The notes below the pieces were generated by a model that worked only from the letters and a program-made list of their open reading frames with translations, ran no database searches and had not been told where the DNA came from. Positions 11,531 through 18,853 of a DNA stretch of 64,000 nucleotides are shown piece after piece. The position numbers and the translations under genes were made by a program. This stretch comes from Desulfocapsa sp. (lineage in GTDB: Bacteria > Desulfobacterota > Desulfobulbia > Desulfobulbales > Desulfocapsaceae): positions 1 through 64,000 of the forward strand of contig VMSP01000164.1 in NCBI GenBank assembly GCA_013792135.1, in the 5' to 3' direction. Within the stretch, counting starts at the first letter, position 1. Each line of letters starts with the position of its first letter.

Positions 11531-11935
11531 CCCATTCTCCTGTCAAAACAAAAATATACAGCAAGCAAACAACACCAAACGACACGAAAAAGCTCATCCC
11601 GACATCCATAACCCCACAATAAACACTGAAGGCAAAAGCCGCTTGCGATATCGACCTTTTTGTTCCTTTTTCAATCATCAACAACGGCAATACAACGACA
11701 GGCAACAGTTACGTGAAAAAACCGGTAACACTATAGCGCCAAACGAGGGTTACTATCCAATAATTTACGGAGATTATTAATAATTCGGAACAAGTTATCG
11801 TTTGACATTCCCCCCTGTCCCTGCCTATGATGAATAAATTTTATGATTTTCCAACAGGCTCGTCTTTCGATGCAAAAACAGGCCTAATTATACGGTTGGG
11901 CAGAAAACGACACAACATTACAGGAGAACAGCACC
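11531..11935. other. Intergenic region at the left edge of the accessory island
   Basis: About 400 bases, AT-rich, between the minus-strand ygiQ-like gene and the plus-strand ParB-like gene. The only feature recognised is the promoter at 11802-11831. It probably marks the transition from core genome to island, but no direct repeat, tRNA or integrase was found here. Confidence 0.4.
11802..11831 (+). promoter_or_regulatory. Sigma-70 promoter for the ParB-like gene
   Basis: TTGACA (11802-11807), an 18-bp spacer and TATGAT (11826-11831). It lies about 105 bases upstream of the start codon at 11936, which itself has a GGAG ribosome-binding site. Confidence 0.6.
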
Positions 11936-13321
11936 ATGATCGACTACTCAGACTGGGAACTTCGCAAACTATCTGTCGACGCCATAAGGCTGGATAAACA
12001 AAACCCGCGTCTACCGGAAGAAATGCTAAACGAGCCCCAGAAATCGATCATACAATACATGATTGAGGAATTTAAGATCCTGGAGATAGCGAAAAGCATC
12101 GCCAAAAACGGCTTTTTTATAAACGAATTGCCCATTGTCGCCAAAGAGGGAAACCACTTTGTTGTAGTTGAGGGGAACCGTCGCATTACGGCGCTAAAGC
12201 TCTTGCGCAACCCTGACATAGCACCTCCTCGCAAGAAACATACCTACTCCCGCTTAGCCGAAGATGTTGACACGAACCAATGGGAGAAATTGCCTATGTA
12301 CATTGCTCCGTCCAGGGAAGCTGTTGCTCCGATTCTTATTGCCAGGCACGGGTCAGAGATGACTTCTCCGTGGCAGCGTATCATGAAAATGCGCTTCCTT
12401 GCCGGAGACGTGCTCAAGAAAGTACCATATGAAGAGATCGCTGACCGCTACTCCGTGCCCATAGCTGAGGTGCGTACAGCGGCAGCTACCATGCTTGTTA
12501 GGGAAATGGTACGTGAGGCTGATATAGATGATGACAGAAAAGACAAATACCTCTCTGAGAAATTCCAGACATCAACCCTTACCAGATTTATGGAGACAAG
12601 CAGTTTTATCAAGAAAACAGGGTTTCAGGTAAATGGAGCCGCCCTGCAGTATGAGATTCCAAAAGACGAATTCCTGCAAATCATCTTAAGGATGTTCAAA
12701 GATATAGCTGACGAGACAATAACATCCAGAAACGAAGTCGATGAGCGCAAAAAATACATCTCCGACATTTTTGAAGAAATTACATCAGGTAAAAAAGAGG
12801 AAAATACCTTTGAGGCAGAACAAAGCGAATCTGAGCCGGACAAGCAGGAACCCCGCAAACCAAAACCACGCAAACGAGTTGAAAAATTGATCGCAGACAC
12901 TTTAGATTTCAACACGGGCTCACTAAAACTGAACGAACTTATAAAAGAAGGGCAAAAAATGTCCGTGGGGGTTTACCCCAATGCTGGCGGCCTGTTGATC
13001 AGGACGATTCTAGACTTGGCCGTCCAACGGCTATACGACATCAACGGAGCCATAAGTGAAACAGTAGACCAAAACGGACTTACCCTCGGGTTGACAAAGC
13101 GTATCAACAACCTGCATGGCCGCCATGGCGACTGGTTTGAAAGCACCGCAATTCGTAAAAAGTTTCAACGCTTCGTGGCCCATGACAGTCAATCATTTGT
13201 CCATATTGAAACATTGAACGATTACGTCCATGGCGATTATGGACGGCCGACGACAGATGATTTGCGCAATTTCTGGTCCCAAATCGAACCGCTTATCGAG
13301 ATGATACTCGAGGAAGATTAG
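11936..13321 (+). CDS. ParB-N-domain protein with HEPN/Abi-like C-terminus, possible defence protein
   Basis: A 461-aa protein, start ATG supported by an upstream GGAG. Residues about 8-95 form a ParB/Srx-type domain with the motif VVVEGNRRITALKLL (the GxxR element of ParB-like nucleases and CTPases). A helical middle part (about 130-240) resembles the helix-turn-helix region of ParB proteins (VPYEEIADRYSVPIAEVRTAA). A charged linker (about 270-325, rich in Glu, Lys and Pro) precedes a helical C-terminal domain with LLIRTILDLAVQRLYD and LNDYVHGDYG, reminiscent of HEPN or Abi-like C-terminal domains. It is not a chromosome-partition ParB: no parA, no parS and the wrong architecture. It converges with a D12 adenine methylase with a 4-bp stop overlap. 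A role in phage defence or DNA modification sensing is inference. Confidence 0.7.
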   Translation: MIDYSDWELRKLSVDAIRLDKQNPRLPEEMLNEPQKSIIQYMIEEFKILEIAKSIAKNGFFINELPIVAKEGNHFVVVEGNRRITALKLLRNPDIAPPRKKHTYSRLAEDVDTNQWEKLPMYIAPSREAVAPILIARHGSEMTSPWQRIMKMRFLAGDVLKKVPYEEIADRYSVPIAEVRTAAATMLVREMVREADIDDDRKDKYLSEKFQTSTLTRFMETSSFIKKTGFQVNGAALQYEIPKDEFLQIILRMFKDIADETITSRNEVDERKKYISDIFEEITSGKKEENTFEAEQSESEPDKQEPRKPKPRKRVEKLIADTLDFNTGSLKLNELIKEGQKMSVGVYPNAGGLLIRTILDLAVQRLYDINGAISETVDQNGLTLGLTKRINNLHGRHGDWFESTAIRKKFQRFVAHDSQSFVHIETLNDYVHGDYGRPTTDDLRNFWSQIEPLIEMILEED

Positions 13322-14184
13322 GCCATGGTAAATTTGGTCCCAATCTTGTCGGGCAACATCAACCAGGGAGGGGAAATTAAAAGCTCACAGCCCTGTTTTG
13401 GTTTGGCAGCAGAGTAATTCAAGGTGTATGTCGAGGTGATATTGTCTTGGTAAAGAACACGGATCTCTTGGGCGTCATCATAGGTCAACACCCAGAAATC
13501 TGAACTTGACATCTTGCCAAGCGCCCAAGCTAGATTTTCATGGTCGTCATATTCGTAGGCATTCAGATACAATTGATGACCTTTTTTGAAGTAGGGAGGA
13601 TCAAGATAGACAAGCTTTGGTCCATCAATGCTTGGAACAACCTTCTGTAGGAGATCGATCGCGTCAAGATTGTAGACACTAATTCTCTCCTTGTATCGCT
13701 CGATTCTTCTAATTTTTTTAATAAGGTCCTCCCGATTGAAACGAGCGTCTATTGTATATGTCCCCGTTTGATGCTGGCCACCGATGGGCCCGGCCTTAAG
13801 AATGCCCGATCGATTACAGCGGTTCAGGAAGAAAGCTGCAAAGCCAACATCAAAAATGTTTTGCTGTTTATGGGTATTAAGAATATTTTTCTGACGGTGC
13901 CATTCCTCAATGCTGAGGGGGGCAGAGGAGATTCTTCGGACGAACTCGTCAGGTTCATTAAGAACGGAGACCCAAAAGGCATAAATAGCAGGGTCGAAGT
14001 CATTAATAACTATGTGGTTCACTGTGCCATGAAAAAGCAAGTTCAGGGCGGCACCGGCGCCCCCCGCATAGGGCTCAACATAAGTTCCGCTTTGGAGGTC
14101 ATTAAGCTCAATAACTTGGGCAAGGAACAAACTGAGAGACGACTTGCCGCCCGGATATCTTAACGGAGTGTTAGTTATTGGCAT
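13318..14184 (-). CDS. D12-class N6-adenine DNA methyltransferase (Dam-like)
   Basis: A 288-aa MethyltransfD12 protein. Visible motifs are the N-terminal PLRYPGGKSSL, the SAM-binding motif YVEPYAGGAGAALNLL (near residue 35), and the catalytic LVYLDPPY (near residue 198). It would methylate N6 of adenine in an unknown target. Its 3' end overlaps the stop of the ParB-like gene by 4 bp in convergent orientation. No restriction endonuclease gene adjoins it, so it is an orphan methylase or the partner of the ParB-like protein. AT-rich sequence upstream is consistent with horizontal origin. Confidence 0.9.
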   Translation of the reverse strand: MPITNTPLRYPGGKSSLSLFLAQVIELNDLQSGTYVEPYAGGAGAALNLLFHGTVNHIVINDFDPAIYAFWVSVLNEPDEFVRRISSAPLSIEEWHRQKNILNTHKQQNIFDVGFAAFFLNRCNRSGILKAGPIGGQHQTGTYTIDARFNREDLIKKIRRIERYKERISVYNLDAIDLLQKVVPSIDGPKLVYLDPPYFKKGHQLYLNAYEYDDHENLAWALGKMSSSDFWVLTYDDAQEIRVLYQDNITSTYTLNYSAAKPKQGCELLISPPWLMLPDKIGTKFTMA

Positions 14185-14313
14185 CTATCTGCTCTAAAAT
14201 ATTTAAAAATATTGACCGCGTATCTGTTGATAAAACTAGCTTACGTTTTTTTTACGCGAGTGACCACTTCTTTTTTTGGGGGAAATAATTCTGACAATTG
14301 AATACCAAATTCC

Positions 14314-14354
14314 AACAATAAAATACACCGGATAAACCGGTATATTTTATTGTT
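14314..14354. repeat. 18-bp near-perfect inverted repeat
   Basis: Arms 14314-14331 and 14337-14354 pair along 18 positions with one mismatch around a 5-nt loop (ataaa). The outer part is AT-only and the inner part is CCGG. It ends about 20 bases before the start of the small membrane-protein gene. No T-run follows it, so it is not an obvious terminator for either strand. It could be an operator, a leader hairpin or part of a mobile-element end. Confidence 0.7.
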
Positions 14355-14374
14355 CATACCCACGGGTGACTGAT

Positions 14375-14833
14375 ATGGCAGATCAAGAAACAAGAAACAT
14401 TGAACCGCTCAAGGTTTTGTATGACGGGGGACTCGCAACGTTACGATCCTTGTCGGAAAGGTCTTTTACGACAACACTTCAGGTTCTTACCTTAGACGTC
14501 GCTGTGGTTGCGGGTCTAATTGGGAGCAAGGCCGAACTTTCGTTTATTGGCAAGTCTATCGGTTGTGTCTTACTTGTTCTGTTCAATGGCTTCGTAATCG
14601 GTTATCTCGCATCAAAAGCACGGGCACATTATCGGGAGAAGCAGCAATTCATCACTGTTCAGTCCGCTTTATACCGACTATCTGGATTGAACAATAATGG
14701 TAACGAAGAAAACAACGTGTCGTTCTGGCGATCTTTTTTCGGTGGCAGTGGTTTATTTATCGCATCAGTAGCTTTGGCTTGTGTTGTTGCCGCCGCAGCT
14801 TTGTGGGTGCCGATGCTCAGCACATCGGGCTAA
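14375..14833 (+). CDS. Small membrane protein, probable gene-cassette product
   Basis: A 152-aa protein with three hydrophobic segments: about residues 33-50, 56-77 (IGCVLLVLFNGFVIGYLASKA) and 125-147 (FIASVALACVVAAAALWVP). A soluble, charged loop lies between the second and third. An in-frame GTG at 14366 is an alternative start. I do not recognise the family. The stop codon falls inside the left core of an attC-like site, the usual arrangement for integron gene cassettes. Its position in the island suggests an effector or immunity-type membrane protein, but that is only inferred from context. Confidence 0.6.
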   Translation: MADQETRNIEPLKVLYDGGLATLRSLSERSFTTTLQVLTLDVAVVAGLIGSKAELSFIGKSIGCVLLVLFNGFVIGYLASKARAHYREKQQFITVQSALYRLSGLNNNGNEENNVSFWRSFFGGSGLFIASVALACVVAAAALWVPMLSTSG

Positions 14834-14890
14834 CCTTCGCTCCAGCGGGACGCGCCGCAAGCGGCGCGTCCCTGAGCTTTGACGTTAAAT
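14827..14890 (+). mobile_element. Integron attC-like recombination site
   Basis: The site has a left simple element with CTAAC (14830-14834) followed by TTCGCTC. A perfect 12-bp stem follows (14847-14858 with 14861-14872). The right side reads GAGC, then GTTAAAT at 14884-14890, matching the GTTRRRY core. The arms outside the stem (TAAC...GCTC against GAGC...GTTA) are also partly complementary, giving the two-box folded structure typical of attC. The upstream gene's stop codon lies in the left core. No integrase gene and no second attC were seen. A plain terminator is less likely because no T-run follows the stem. Confidence 0.65.
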
Positions 14891-15096
14891 TTTCGGAGGT
14901 TCATTGAAGCCAGAGCTACTCGTCAAATCAGACAATGGTCAAGGAGAAACGGTGTCAGGCTTCCAAGTTAGCAAGTTGACCAAAATAAAAAAAACAGAAT
15001 CAGGGATTGACCATCCCCCGGACATCACCCCATGGGTGGCTGGCTTCAATTTGTGCTCGGCTGACGGACCTCAATTCACAAAGATCGGGAAGAGAG

Positions 15097-15432
15097 CTAC
15101 TCACCATACATCTCGGTAATGATTCTCCGTAACTGGGAAGCATCATCATCAGGCAACTGATCAATTTTTTTCTTTAGTCGTGTTTTGCTGATTGTTCGTA
15201 TCTGATCAACAGCAACTTCAGCCTGTTTGTCGACACACGTAATCTGAAAGCGTGTTCTCCATGTTGGGTGGATTTTCGAAGTTATCGGACAAATGACAAC
15301 CGTTTCCAGATATGTGTTCATGGCGTCATCGCTAATGATAACAACAGGACGGATTTTACTGATTTCGCTGCCGAGGGTTGGATTCAAGTCTGCAAAATAG
15401 ATTTCGTATCGTTTAGGCGTCAACGTCGTCAT
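15097..15432 (-). CDS. mazF: MazF/PemK-family mRNA interferase toxin
   Basis: A growth-inhibitory endoribonuclease of the type II toxin-antitoxin family, about 111 aa. Characteristic N-terminus KRYEIYFADLNPTLGSEISKIRPVVI-type (key features: DLNP, the GSE turn and the R-P-V-V strand), then VVICPITSKI and VDQIRTI. The ATG at 15432 sits immediately after GGAGG; a TTG three codons further (15423) has better spacing and may be the true start. The gene overlaps the upstream antitoxin gene by 10-20 bases, depending on the start. Confidence 0.9.
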   Translation of the reverse strand: MTTLTPKRYEIYFADLNPTLGSEISKIRPVVIISDDAMNTYLETVVICPITSKIHPTWRTRFQITCVDKQAEVAVDQIRTISKTRLKKKIDQLPDDDASQLRRIITEMYGE

Positions 15433-15685
15433 CCTCCAATCCGTCAAGCAGTGTCGGGTCATACTCGCTCCAGTCTTCCCCCTCATTGGCCATGGCCTTA
15501 TAGGTGTCAGCCCAGGAGAGCTTGTCGTCTTGTTTCTTCCGGAGGAGAAGCCCCTGAGCGGTTTCTTCCAGAACCAGGGAATGAGTGAAACCGTATTTTT
15601 GCAAGAGGACTTTGGGCAAGCGGACCCCCAGTGAGTTGCCTATATGCACTATCTTAATATCCCGAGAGCGTAACGTTTTATCCAT
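15413..15685 (-). CDS. mazE: MazE-like antitoxin, AbrB/SpoVT fold
   Basis: A 90-aa antitoxin. The N-terminal half has the swapped-hairpin AbrB-type DNA-binding motif (IKIVHIGNSLGVRLPKVLL). The C-terminal half is acidic (EGEDWSEYDP...LEDDDVDA), as in toxin-neutralising tails. It is translated first in the operon and should autorepress with MazF. A TGTAATTACA palindrome lies about 45 bases upstream of its start. Confidence 0.9.
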   Translation of the reverse strand: MDKTLRSRDIKIVHIGNSLGVRLPKVLLQKYGFTHSLVLEETAQGLLLRKKQDDKLSWADTYKAMANEGEDWSEYDPTLLDGLEDDDVDA

Positions 15686-15728
15686 GGTGGCACCTGCATT
15701 TGAATGTGAGCGGCATTATTGTGATTAC

Positions 15729-15738
15729 TGTAATTACA
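15729..15738. promoter_or_regulatory. Candidate MazE operator
   Basis: Perfect 10-bp palindrome TGTAATTACA, directly preceded by a degenerate copy TGTGATTAC. It is positioned in the presumed promoter of the mazEF pair. Assigned from position and symmetry only. Confidence 0.35.
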
Positions 15739-15969
15739 CGATGCCACGGGAAGCAAAATAAATCAAGACAAAATCAAGCGAATCAAGCGGGGTCAGACCA
15801 CATTTCCTGTACTTGACGGGGTACGACACAGCCTGCAACATCCCCCACACTGGTCGAGGAGCCGGAAAAATTGGCACTTTCAGCCAAAGAATGATACATT
15901 ATTCTCAGTTGTTCTCTATCCTCAACGCCTATCACAAAAAACCAGACCATCCACCACAAGGAGAGACTC

Positions 15970-17407: not shown

Positions 17408-18853
17408 ATGTCTTTCAATATCGACAAAGCCTTACAAATCCTGGAACAGGAAGTAAAAAATTATCAGGTCCCGGTAGTGGACCTGATTGCCATACAAACC
17501 CATGACCCCTTCAAGGTCCTGGTGGCGACTATTCTTTCGGCCAGGACCAGAGACGAAGTAACCGCACAAGCCGCTGCCCGCCTGTTTGCCAGAGCTTCCA
17601 CCCCCCATGCCTTGGCACTTCTTGACGAAAAGACTCTACAACAGCTTATCTATCCGGTGGGGTTTTACAAAAACAAGGCCAGGTATCTGGCAGCCCTGCC
17701 AGAGGTCCTCAAAAAACAATTCTCCTTTCAAGTTCCCGACGGCATCGAACAACTCACCTCCCTGCCGGGAGTCGGCCGAAAAACAGCCAATCTGGTACGG
17801 GCCCAAGGATTCGGTAAAGCGGCGATCTGCGTGGATACCCATGTCCACCGGATCATGAACATCTGGGGATATGTGCAGACCGCAAACCCCTTGCAGACCG
17901 AGATGGTCCTGCGGGAAAAACTTCCTGAGCACTATTGGATCCGAGTCAATTCTCTGTTGGTGGCCTTTGGCCAGGGAACCTGTCGACCTGTTGGTCCCCA
18001 CTGTGAGAGCTGCGTCCTTGACGCTCTCTGCCCCCGGATCGGCGTCACCCCAAGAAAACTCAAGCTAGCAAAAACACAAAAACAAGCCGGGGTCAAACGA
18101 TTGATTTCCTGGAATGTCAATGGCCTGCGAGCTGTGGCCAAAAACGGCTTTGTCGATATCGTGCGCGATCTAGCCCCGGACATTCTCGCCCTTCAGGAGA
18201 TCAAGGCCTTGCCTGAACAGTTGCCGGACTCGGTGCGGGAGATGGACGGATTTACAAGTTATTTTAACTCTGCCCCAAAAAAAGGCTACTCAGGAGTGGC
18301 CATTTACAGCCGGGAACCGGCAGACAAGGTCTATCATGGCATTGGTGATCAGCGCTTTGATGAAGAAGGGCGGGTCCTGACCCTGGAATTTGGCGATTTC
18401 TATCTCGTGAACTGTTATTTCCCCAATTCCCGCCATGACCTAAGCCGACTGGAGTTAAAACAGGAATTTAATTGTGCGGTACACAACTTTATTAAAGATC
18501 TGGCCCGTGACAAATCCGTAGTGATCTGTGGTGATTTCAATGTCGCCCATACCGAGATAGACCTTGCCAACCCCGCAGCCAACACAAAAAACGCCGGTTT
18601 CACTCCGGAAGAACGGAAATGGATGGACTCATATATCGAAGAGGGATGGATTGACACCTTCAGACAGTACAATCAGGAACCGGGACAGTACTCCTGGTGG
18701 AGTTACCGCAGCAACGCCCGCGAGCGGAATATCGGCTGGCGTATTGATTATTTCTTTGTTGATTCCGCCAGTAAAACAAGAATAGTTGGCGCCGACATCC
18801 TGGCCGACATCCTAGGTTCAGATCACTGCCCAGTAACACTGGATTTCAAATAA
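17408..18853 (+). CDS. Endonuclease III-exonuclease III fusion (bifunctional base-excision repair enzyme)
   Basis: A single 481-aa frame joins two repair enzymes. Residues 1-212 are endonuclease III (Nth). They carry the helix-hairpin-helix LPGVGRKTANLV with catalytic Lys125, Asp143 in VDTHVHR, and the [4Fe-4S] loop C192-x6-C199-x2-C202-x5-C208. A linker of about 17 residues follows. Residues 229-481 are exonuclease III (Xth), with ISWNVNGLRA, ALQEIKA (metal Glu), CGDFNVAH and the terminal GSDHCPVTLDF. The product could remove oxidised pyrimidines and then process the AP site with one polypeptide. All catalytic residues of both halves appear present, so it is not a degenerate fusion. The frame is uninterrupted across the junction. 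Confidence 0.93.
   Translation: MSFNIDKALQILEQEVKNYQVPVVDLIAIQTHDPFKVLVATILSARTRDEVTAQAAARLFARASTPHALALLDEKTLQQLIYPVGFYKNKARYLAALPEVLKKQFSFQVPDGIEQLTSLPGVGRKTANLVRAQGFGKAAICVDTHVHRIMNIWGYVQTANPLQTEMVLREKLPEHYWIRVNSLLVAFGQGTCRPVGPHCESCVLDALCPRIGVTPRKLKLAKTQKQAGVKRLISWNVNGLRAVAKNGFVDIVRDLAPDILALQEIKALPEQLPDSVREMDGFTSYFNSAPKKGYSGVAIYSREPADKVYHGIGDQRFDEEGRVLTLEFGDFYLVNCYFPNSRHDLSRLELKQEFNCAVHNFIKDLARDKSVVICGDFNVAHTEIDLANPAANTKNAGFTPEERKWMDSYIEEGWIDTFRQYNQEPGQYSWWSYRSNARERNIGWRIDYFFVDSASKTRIVGADILADILGSDHCPVTLDFK

Follow-up and report, generated by a model that had tools for sequence, protein, structure and literature searches.

The element described here occupies positions 11936-14184 of a 64,000-nucleotide stretch of Desulfocapsa sp. 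DNA (contig VMSP01000164.1; "the window" below means this whole stretch) and consists of gene A, encoding a ParB-like protein, and gene B, encoding a DNA methyltransferase. Judged from its sequence, the pair is a divergent, distant cassette of the phage defence system PD-λ-5. We found that gene A matched the PADLOC profile PD-Lambda-5_A (PDLC04017) at E 4.8e-100 over residues 2-459 of 461 and profile positions 4-465 of 473, and that the adjacent gene B matched PD-Lambda-5_B (PDLC04018) at E 1.5e-115 over residues 1-281 of 288 and profile positions 1-279 of 291. Gene B was also matched by the Pfam family PF02086 (MethyltransfD12, E 2.4e-20), its D12 motifs RYPGGK and DPPY were visible in an alignment of 18 sequences, and a sequence search returned one PDB relative, 7m6b (E 4.3e-16). 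A first-pass annotation, made from the letters alone, had correctly named gene B a D12 methylase. Its description of the methylase as an orphan without a nuclease partner is misleading, since a known two-gene system normally carries such a methylase as its second gene.

PD-λ-5 came out of a functional selection in E. coli, where it protects broadly against phages (Vassallo et al. 2022, PMC9519451, drawn on here, like the other papers cited by PMC number, in part); it is also named in PMC10799925, PMC12629846 and PMC10482375. Both proteins match this system, and therefore the defence role proposed in the first-pass annotation is probably right for this copy and, as an idea, was already known. 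The cloning host used in PMC9519451 had the mrr region deleted, as we would expect if the PD-λ-5 methylase is active. E. coli MSI001 carries a cassette of the same family, its A protein matching PDLC03998 at E 5.3e-168 and its B protein PDLC04018 at E 7.9e-122. There the two same-strand genes lie in a P2-like prophage between the replication endonuclease and portal genes, at the P2 hotspot described in PMC9519451; the correspondence with the copy assayed in that work is one of family. This cassette was present in 22 of 5426 E. coli genomes, all at ≥99% identity. The nearest unbroken full-length gene A among those compared (L026) is 35% identical to that of the window, and a partial relative is 78% identical.

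Gene A itself received no significant Pfam or NCBIfam name, and sequence search gave no PDB relative at E ≤ 1. A profile search against the PDB returned only a de novo designed protein (E 0.03), which was rejected as a chance match. The two genes are convergent and share four bases, the stop codon of A occupying 13319-13321 and that of B being the complement of 13318-13320, so that the ORFs, strands and overlapping stops given in the first-pass annotation are borne out. The promoter-like site upstream of gene A (Table 1) represents agreement with a consensus only, as the region holds 8 such sites and its shuffled versions hold 5.4 ± 2.4.

Table 1. Positions in the window of the cassette, its predicted domains and the site that holds it (ORF, open reading frame; aa, amino acids; NTP, nucleoside triphosphate; HTH, helix-turn-helix)
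Feature	Position	Strand	Details and basis
Gene A ORF	11936-13321	+	461 aa, ATG start
Gene A protein: predicted ParB-like NTP-binding, ParB/Noc-type DNA-binding and HEPN-fold domains	11936-13321	+	PADLOC, AlphaFold2, PDB fold matches
Predicted ParB-type nucleotide-binding domain, residues 1-143	11936-12364	+	7bnk, 6sdk fold matches
GNRR, residues 80-83	12173-12184	+	Invariant
Predicted helical HTH DNA-binding region like KorB/Noc/ParB, residues 144-285	12365-12790	+	Fold matches
Predicted HEPN-fold domain, residues 326-461	12911-13318	+	Fold of isolated domain
HEPN-domain residue R356	13001-13003	+	Conserved
HEPN-domain residue D360	13013-13015	+	Conserved
HEPN-domain residue H432	13229-13231	+	Conserved
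Gene B ORF	13318-14184	-	288 aa, ATG start
Gene B protein: PD-λ-5_B homologue, D12-class N6-adenine DNA methyltransferase with DPPY	13318-14184	-	PADLOC, Pfam
Promoter-like TTGACA-18-TATGAT	11802-11831	+	104 bp upstream of gene A; 11/12 consensus positions
Variable site with the cassette, between radical-SAM (presumably YgiQ-type) and iron alcohol dehydrogenase genes	11531-15969		Gap 4439 bp; flank families by Pfam

Domains and conserved residues of the gene A protein

An AlphaFold2 model of the gene A protein was built on 61 sequences and had a mean predicted local distance difference test (pLDDT) score of 88.8. Residues 8-143 resembled the ParB nucleotide-binding domain (7bnk, Z 9.7, 95 residues, 2.4 Å; 6sdk, Z 9.6), and Foldseek matched the model to the ParB structure 7bnr (E 4.3e-05). 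Looser matches included the helical region that follows, with KorB 8qa9 aligned to residues 8-288 (Z 10.4, 203 residues, 6.0 Å) and Noc 7nfu to residues 1-284 (Z 9.0, 198 residues, 5.5 Å), and a weak Pfam match to Sigma70_r4 appeared at residues 147-180 (E 0.017). Residues 325-461 of the full model matched the HEPN proteins Csm6 (Z 7.8), HepT (Z 7.2) and AbiV (Z 5.5). When the C-terminal domain was folded alone (pLDDT 83.2), the top eight PDB entries were all HEPN, at Z 6.7-9.1, while the next row stood at 5.4; the two best were 2hsb and 2q00. Among these eight, 2q00 and 2jpu are one protein, which is HEPN according to PMC3710099, and three are HepT-type toxins, 7bxo being taken as HepT on the strength of its sister entries. 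The HEPN-like C-terminal domain suspected in the first-pass annotation is thus supported by the fold search, and an unrelated fold was not obtained. Taken together, the predicted structure indicates that gene A encodes a ParB-like protein with a HEPN domain in place of the usual C-terminal dimerisation domain. In Vibrio phage ValB1MD-2 (L035:3132-4684), the ParB and HEPN parts of gene A are separate and overlap at their ends, and a relative that is 91% identical to it in the ParB part (L229) carries a single 539-aa ORF.

ParB, KorB and Noc are the best folds for the first 285 residues, and on this ground the genes could be an ordinary partition or transcription-regulator pair with no defence role. 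We consider this very improbable, because a HEPN fold stands where the ParB C-terminus would be, the protein matches over its full length a family whose defence activity was assayed in E. coli, and the cassettes are located in a prophage and at a variable site. Moreover, none of the 10 neighbouring proteins scanned with Pfam was a ParA, and a partition role was rejected for this reason.

Conservation was read from an alignment of 61 sequences, namely the window protein and 60 of the 66 distinct ones among 75 long HEPN-type sequences (L058 and L062, at contig starts, and the near-copies L107, L110, L113 and L124 were left out); a second alignment, of 59 rows, also left out L108 and L120, which are cut at contig ends. 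Residues N23, R25, G80-N81-R82-R83, H138, W146 and R356 were invariant in all 61; residue 360 was E in 54 and D in 7; H432 was present in 59 of 61, the remaining two being cut by contig ends. In the predicted model, the helix that bears R356 and [ED]360 (348-369) precedes the one that bears H432 (424-432). The GNRR element at residues 80-83, already pointed out in the first-pass annotation, is the form taken in gene A by the phosphate-binding GxRR motif, which is named for VirB and ParB in PMC10770331. The N-x3-H that was there noted at the C-terminal end did not hold up as the key motif, as position 428 is N in only 21 of 61 sequences, though the H is kept in 59.

Pairing with methylases and exchange of parts

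Scans with the single protein found one locus in genome contigs and none in viral contigs, while a query built from an alignment succeeded. The viral sample consists of the best 80 of 133 confirmed relatives, and it is non-random because it was obtained with a single GNRR-containing pattern, holds the best rows and includes some near-copies. All 80 distinct viral contigs carry the ParB-like domain. Pairing could be judged in 75 of them, and in all 75 a methylase lies beside the gene A relative; the other five end at that point; the co-occurrence check proposed in the first-pass annotation therefore gave a positive answer. Where a HEPN-type C-terminus was encoded in the same or a neighbouring ORF (57 contigs), a D12 methylase followed within 0.5 kb downstream in 54, of which 46 were same-strand and 8 convergent, and the other three contigs end there. 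The five long relatives without a detected HEPN domain all have a D12 methylase. Short relatives (<420 aa) differ in their methylase: in 16 of 18 a C5 cytosine methylase lies no more than 1.2 kb away, two contigs ending there, and a third protein, X, is present in 12 of the 16 C5-paired loci. In a phylum-wide sample, the family was detected in 6 of 395 genomes, that of the window included, and a D12 methylase adjoins gene A in five of the six. Neighbourhoods of gene A matches were also read in 6 of 9 plasmid records and 4 of 19 phage records; four further phage or plasmid regions (L040, L041, L044 and L045) came from methylase matches only, and L043 is another part of a record having a gene A match.

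The convergent state of the window is the minority arrangement, with 57 same-strand and 14 convergent among 71 pairs. A tree of 71 gene A sequences gave at least 7 changes of orientation, 6 of them forced by well-supported branches; only this minimum number is used, because the tree was made in quick mode and has long branches. The window groups with L026, another convergent pair (Shimodaira-Hasegawa-like approximate likelihood ratio test, SH-aLRT, 99). The persistence of the pair through these changes indicates more than hitch-hiking in an operon. Distances among A proteins correlated with those among B proteins (rho 0.43; the highest of 500 permutations was 0.16), a weak test, as shared ancestry alone can give such a correlation. 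L144 departs strikingly from this correlation: compared with L034, L092 and L118, all convergent, its gene B was 80% identical and its gene A 18-19% identical, which from the sequences looks like an exchange of effector beside the same methylase.

The partners of the methylase were read from the other side in the best 80 of at least 567 confirmed loci, 43 of which had a strong D12 match. Among these 43 viral loci, the neighbour was a gene of ParB or HEPN type or the X cassette in 27 and an AAA ATPase of 469-582 aa in 11, and 5 had no recognised partner. Taken with L044:3125-5873, L045:2211-4846 and loci among L129-L160, the ATPases beside D12 methylases of the PD-λ-5_B clade are of about 470-595 aa and look similar to ATPases of defence systems, AriA and PtuA among them; a separate methylase-ATPase defence pair is possible. 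Such loci show that B is not tied to gene A alone, and together with the report that ParB-fold proteins bind CTP, ATP or GTP (PMC12704722) they would suit an alternative in which gene A is a HEPN abortive-infection protein with some other phage trigger, for example nucleotide pools sensed through GNRR, and B is accessory, serving only to silence gene A expression or to shield the carrying element from host restriction. We regard this alternative as unlikely, given that the methylase was missing in 0 of 75 judgeable viral contigs and that a purely regulatory role explains poorly why it can be either D12 or C5.

Short ParB genes occur mostly with C5 methylases and in some cases with D12 (L037, L141, L154 and L156). 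A three-gene module is seen in Escherichia phage vB_EcoM-12474II (L039:204-3240) and its relatives among L057-L228, in which a short ParB-like protein of 372 aa is accompanied by the 330-aa protein X and by a C5 cytosine methylase, as a rule convergent; it was matched in 139 of 5426 E. coli genomes, with at least 80% of the module covered in 36. Protein X had no family match, and D210, D214, Q234 and K245 were invariant in 19 sequences. By our reading of these residues it resembles PD-(D/E)xK nucleases, and the branch of short relatives therefore probably acts on DNA.

These short relatives, which lack a detected HEPN domain and often have the PD-(D/E)xK-like X, bring in a restriction-modification explanation, according to which the ParB-like protein itself attacks unmethylated DNA and the HEPN domain only dimerises or binds RNA. 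Proteins of the ParB/Srx fold have been reported to act as nucleases (cited in PMC12839542), and the absence of the HEPN motif Rx4-6H from gene A points the same way. We nevertheless find this explanation unlikely, since all 61 sequences retain R356 and [ED]360, and all 59 uncut relatives retain H432, at about 20% identity, which suggests catalysis and not mere structure, and since the best folds, ParB, Noc and KorB, are those of DNA- and nucleotide-binding proteins. Of the two parts of a type II restriction-modification system, a methylase and a DNA endonuclease of the same specificity, the methylase is present, and no known endonuclease domain was found in gene A by Pfam, by PADLOC or in the fold-match rows seen. 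Overall, the swapping of both methylase chemistry and effector around one ParB domain fits, as circumstantial evidence, a logic of marking and sensing.

Mark-and-sense as a possible mechanism

Starting from the family identity, predicted folds, pairing and motif conservation observed above, we propose that the methylase marks self DNA, the ParB part loads on unmarked DNA and the HEPN domain is thereby switched on, a mechanism to which we give about an even chance. Gene B, by homology, would methylate host adenines at a recognition site as the self mark, and the DNA-binding region of gene A would recognise the same site when it is unmethylated. On incoming phage DNA, with nucleotide in the GNRR pocket, a ParB-type clamp would close and so pair two HEPN domains. 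The paired domains could then cut RNA through R356, [ED]360 and H432, infection would stop, and the cell may shut down.

Several points weigh against this mechanism. The HEPN assignment is by fold only: Foldseek gave no HEPN match at E ≤ 0.001 (2hsb, E 1.3, probability 0.90) and middling Z scores are common among helical bundles, so the weight rests on all the top rows being one superfamily. The window gene A reaches no Pfam HEPN family, and among the 61 aligned members DUF5677 was reached by one, GmrSD_N by three and, weakly, ParB_N by one. The canonical HEPN motif Rx4-6H is missing from the window protein, and R stands at H-6 in 1 of 61 sequences and at H-5 or H-7 in none, so that the domain may lack activity or rely on a different chemistry; going by the model, gene A has the HEPN fold and lies outside the canonical catalytic HEPN class. 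HEPN families with the H and without that R, such as Parep1/8 (2q00), are thought able to use other basic residues, and both 2hsb and 2q00 are discussed as motif variants of different kinds (PMC3710099). Furthermore, the E of the ParB GERR motif is replaced by N in 61 of 61 gene A sequences. The E93A variant of Myxococcus xanthus ParB is defective in hydrolysis, E93 being needed for CTP hydrolysis (PMC9178275), and the numbering of R94 and R95 in PMC10770331 places E93 as the E of GERR; nucleotide hydrolysis may thus be lost in gene A, for which nucleotide binding without hydrolysis is plausible. Methylation sensing, nucleotide binding and RNase activity of gene A are what we infer from sequence, and a limited literature search, including the available part of PMC9519451, found no worked-out PD-λ-5 mechanism.

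There are also loci where the pair is incomplete. The sixth genome of the phylum-wide sample (G470) has a 107-aa fragment with no methylase in the DNA examined, no B lies within 4 kb of gene A in Azospirillum L042, and a weak relative in G076 (E 4.3e-4) has no methylase in the short stretch examined. The closest relative, the 78%-identical partial gene A in a Desulfobulbaceae metagenome-assembled genome (G132/L005), lacks B on its downstream side; the end of the contig falls within gene A, with the upstream side outside view. In place of the methylase, the downstream stretch (L005:895-3806) encodes a Fic/DOC protein (E 1.6e-16) and a protein of 434 aa that Pfam did not match.

The mark-and-sense mechanism can be tentatively widened, with rather more doubt than confidence, to a modular class in which a ParB-type clamp would serve as a methylation-gated sensor, the mark would be D12 or C5 methylation, and the effector would be exchangeable, either a HEPN RNase whose R/[ED]/H site is non-canonical or the PD-(D/E)xK-like X. 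If true, a switch from chromosome segregation would have been turned into a detector of self and non-self. Marking and sensing could account for the range of phages that two genes are able to block, and the near-perfect pairing with a methylase, together with the swaps of chemistry and effector, makes the hypothesis directly testable. A candidate flagged from raw sequence has here been traced to a family whose defence activity had been assayed in E. coli, and that family gains a concrete predicted architecture, with a ParB nucleotide-binding domain, a DNA-binding region, a HEPN domain and three residues to mutate. The two-gene pair as a phage defence, and the combination of ParB, HEPN and methylase (PMC3710099), were already known; to this we add a division of a PD-λ-5 A protein into domains, figures for how often the two genes occur together, the exchanges of methylase and of effector, and a set of residues that can be tested, none of which we found stated in a limited search of the literature.

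Genomic setting and comparison with known systems

The window belongs to a contig of 92,957 bases. The island holding the cassette has a GC content of 45.6% against 50.7% for the window, in agreement with the AT-rich island of the first-pass annotation, and a lower value was found in 3 of 120 equal-length stretches; the flanking radical-SAM gene, which we take to be YgiQ-type, and the iron alcohol dehydrogenase gene have 60.3% and 60.9%. We could read the site in 5 of 16 other genomes of the genus, those with both flanks on one contig. The gap of 4439 bp here compares with 702 bp in G016, and the other four of the five carry unrelated cargo: G015 has an AbiTii gene, G011 a gene with a NERD domain, G001 a VapBC-like gene with a PIN domain, and G002 unnamed genes. 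The island is therefore a variable site where accessory and defence-type genes gather, and it is presumably chromosomal. It also contains, divergent from the methylase gene, a 155-aa protein (14366-14833) without a family match, which looks membrane-bound from its apparent membrane helices, and on the minus strand a MazEF-like toxin-antitoxin pair (15097-15685; PemK_toxin E 3.6e-28 and a weak MazE match). Beyond the island, a 481-aa ORF at 17408-18853 joins an HhH-GPD glycosylase domain (39-173) to an exonuclease/endonuclease/phosphatase domain (233-473), a fusion of endonuclease III-exonuclease III type (Pfam 8.6e-24 and 2.5e-34).

With PD-λ-5, the window pair has in common two genes of near full length, a D12 methylase and a ParB-like protein. 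It differs from the MSI001 copy in being convergent, and no phage gene was found among the window neighbours scanned with Pfam, unlike the prophage setting in E. coli. The CTPase clamps ParB, Noc and KorB are alike in fold in both the nucleotide-binding domain and the HTH region, whereas they have GERR where gene A has GNRR and a C-terminal dimerisation domain where gene A is predicted to have HEPN, and no ParA was seen near gene A. The HEPN proteins HepT, Csm6, AF0298 (2hsb) and Parep1/8 (2q00) share the predicted fold of residues 326-461; Rx4-6H is usual among HEPN proteins and absent in gene A, and Parep1/8, like gene A, keeps the H without the usual R (PMC3710099). A 2023 review (PMC10952713), in the part available, names PD-T4-2, PD-T4-5, PD-T7-3 and ApeA as systems with HEPN (PF18735) and does not include PD-λ-5 among them. 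Proteins that fuse ParB to HEPN, and HEPN operons that also encode ParB and a DNA methylase, were listed in 2013 (Saro_3948 and MAE_28990; PMC3710099) and have the same combination of parts, a likeness at the level of description. The same logic of a methylation mark backed up by a HEPN RNase is found in PrrC/PrrI (PMC3710099), but there PrrC has an ABC ATPase and is joined to a separate type I restriction-modification system, while here two genes would do everything.

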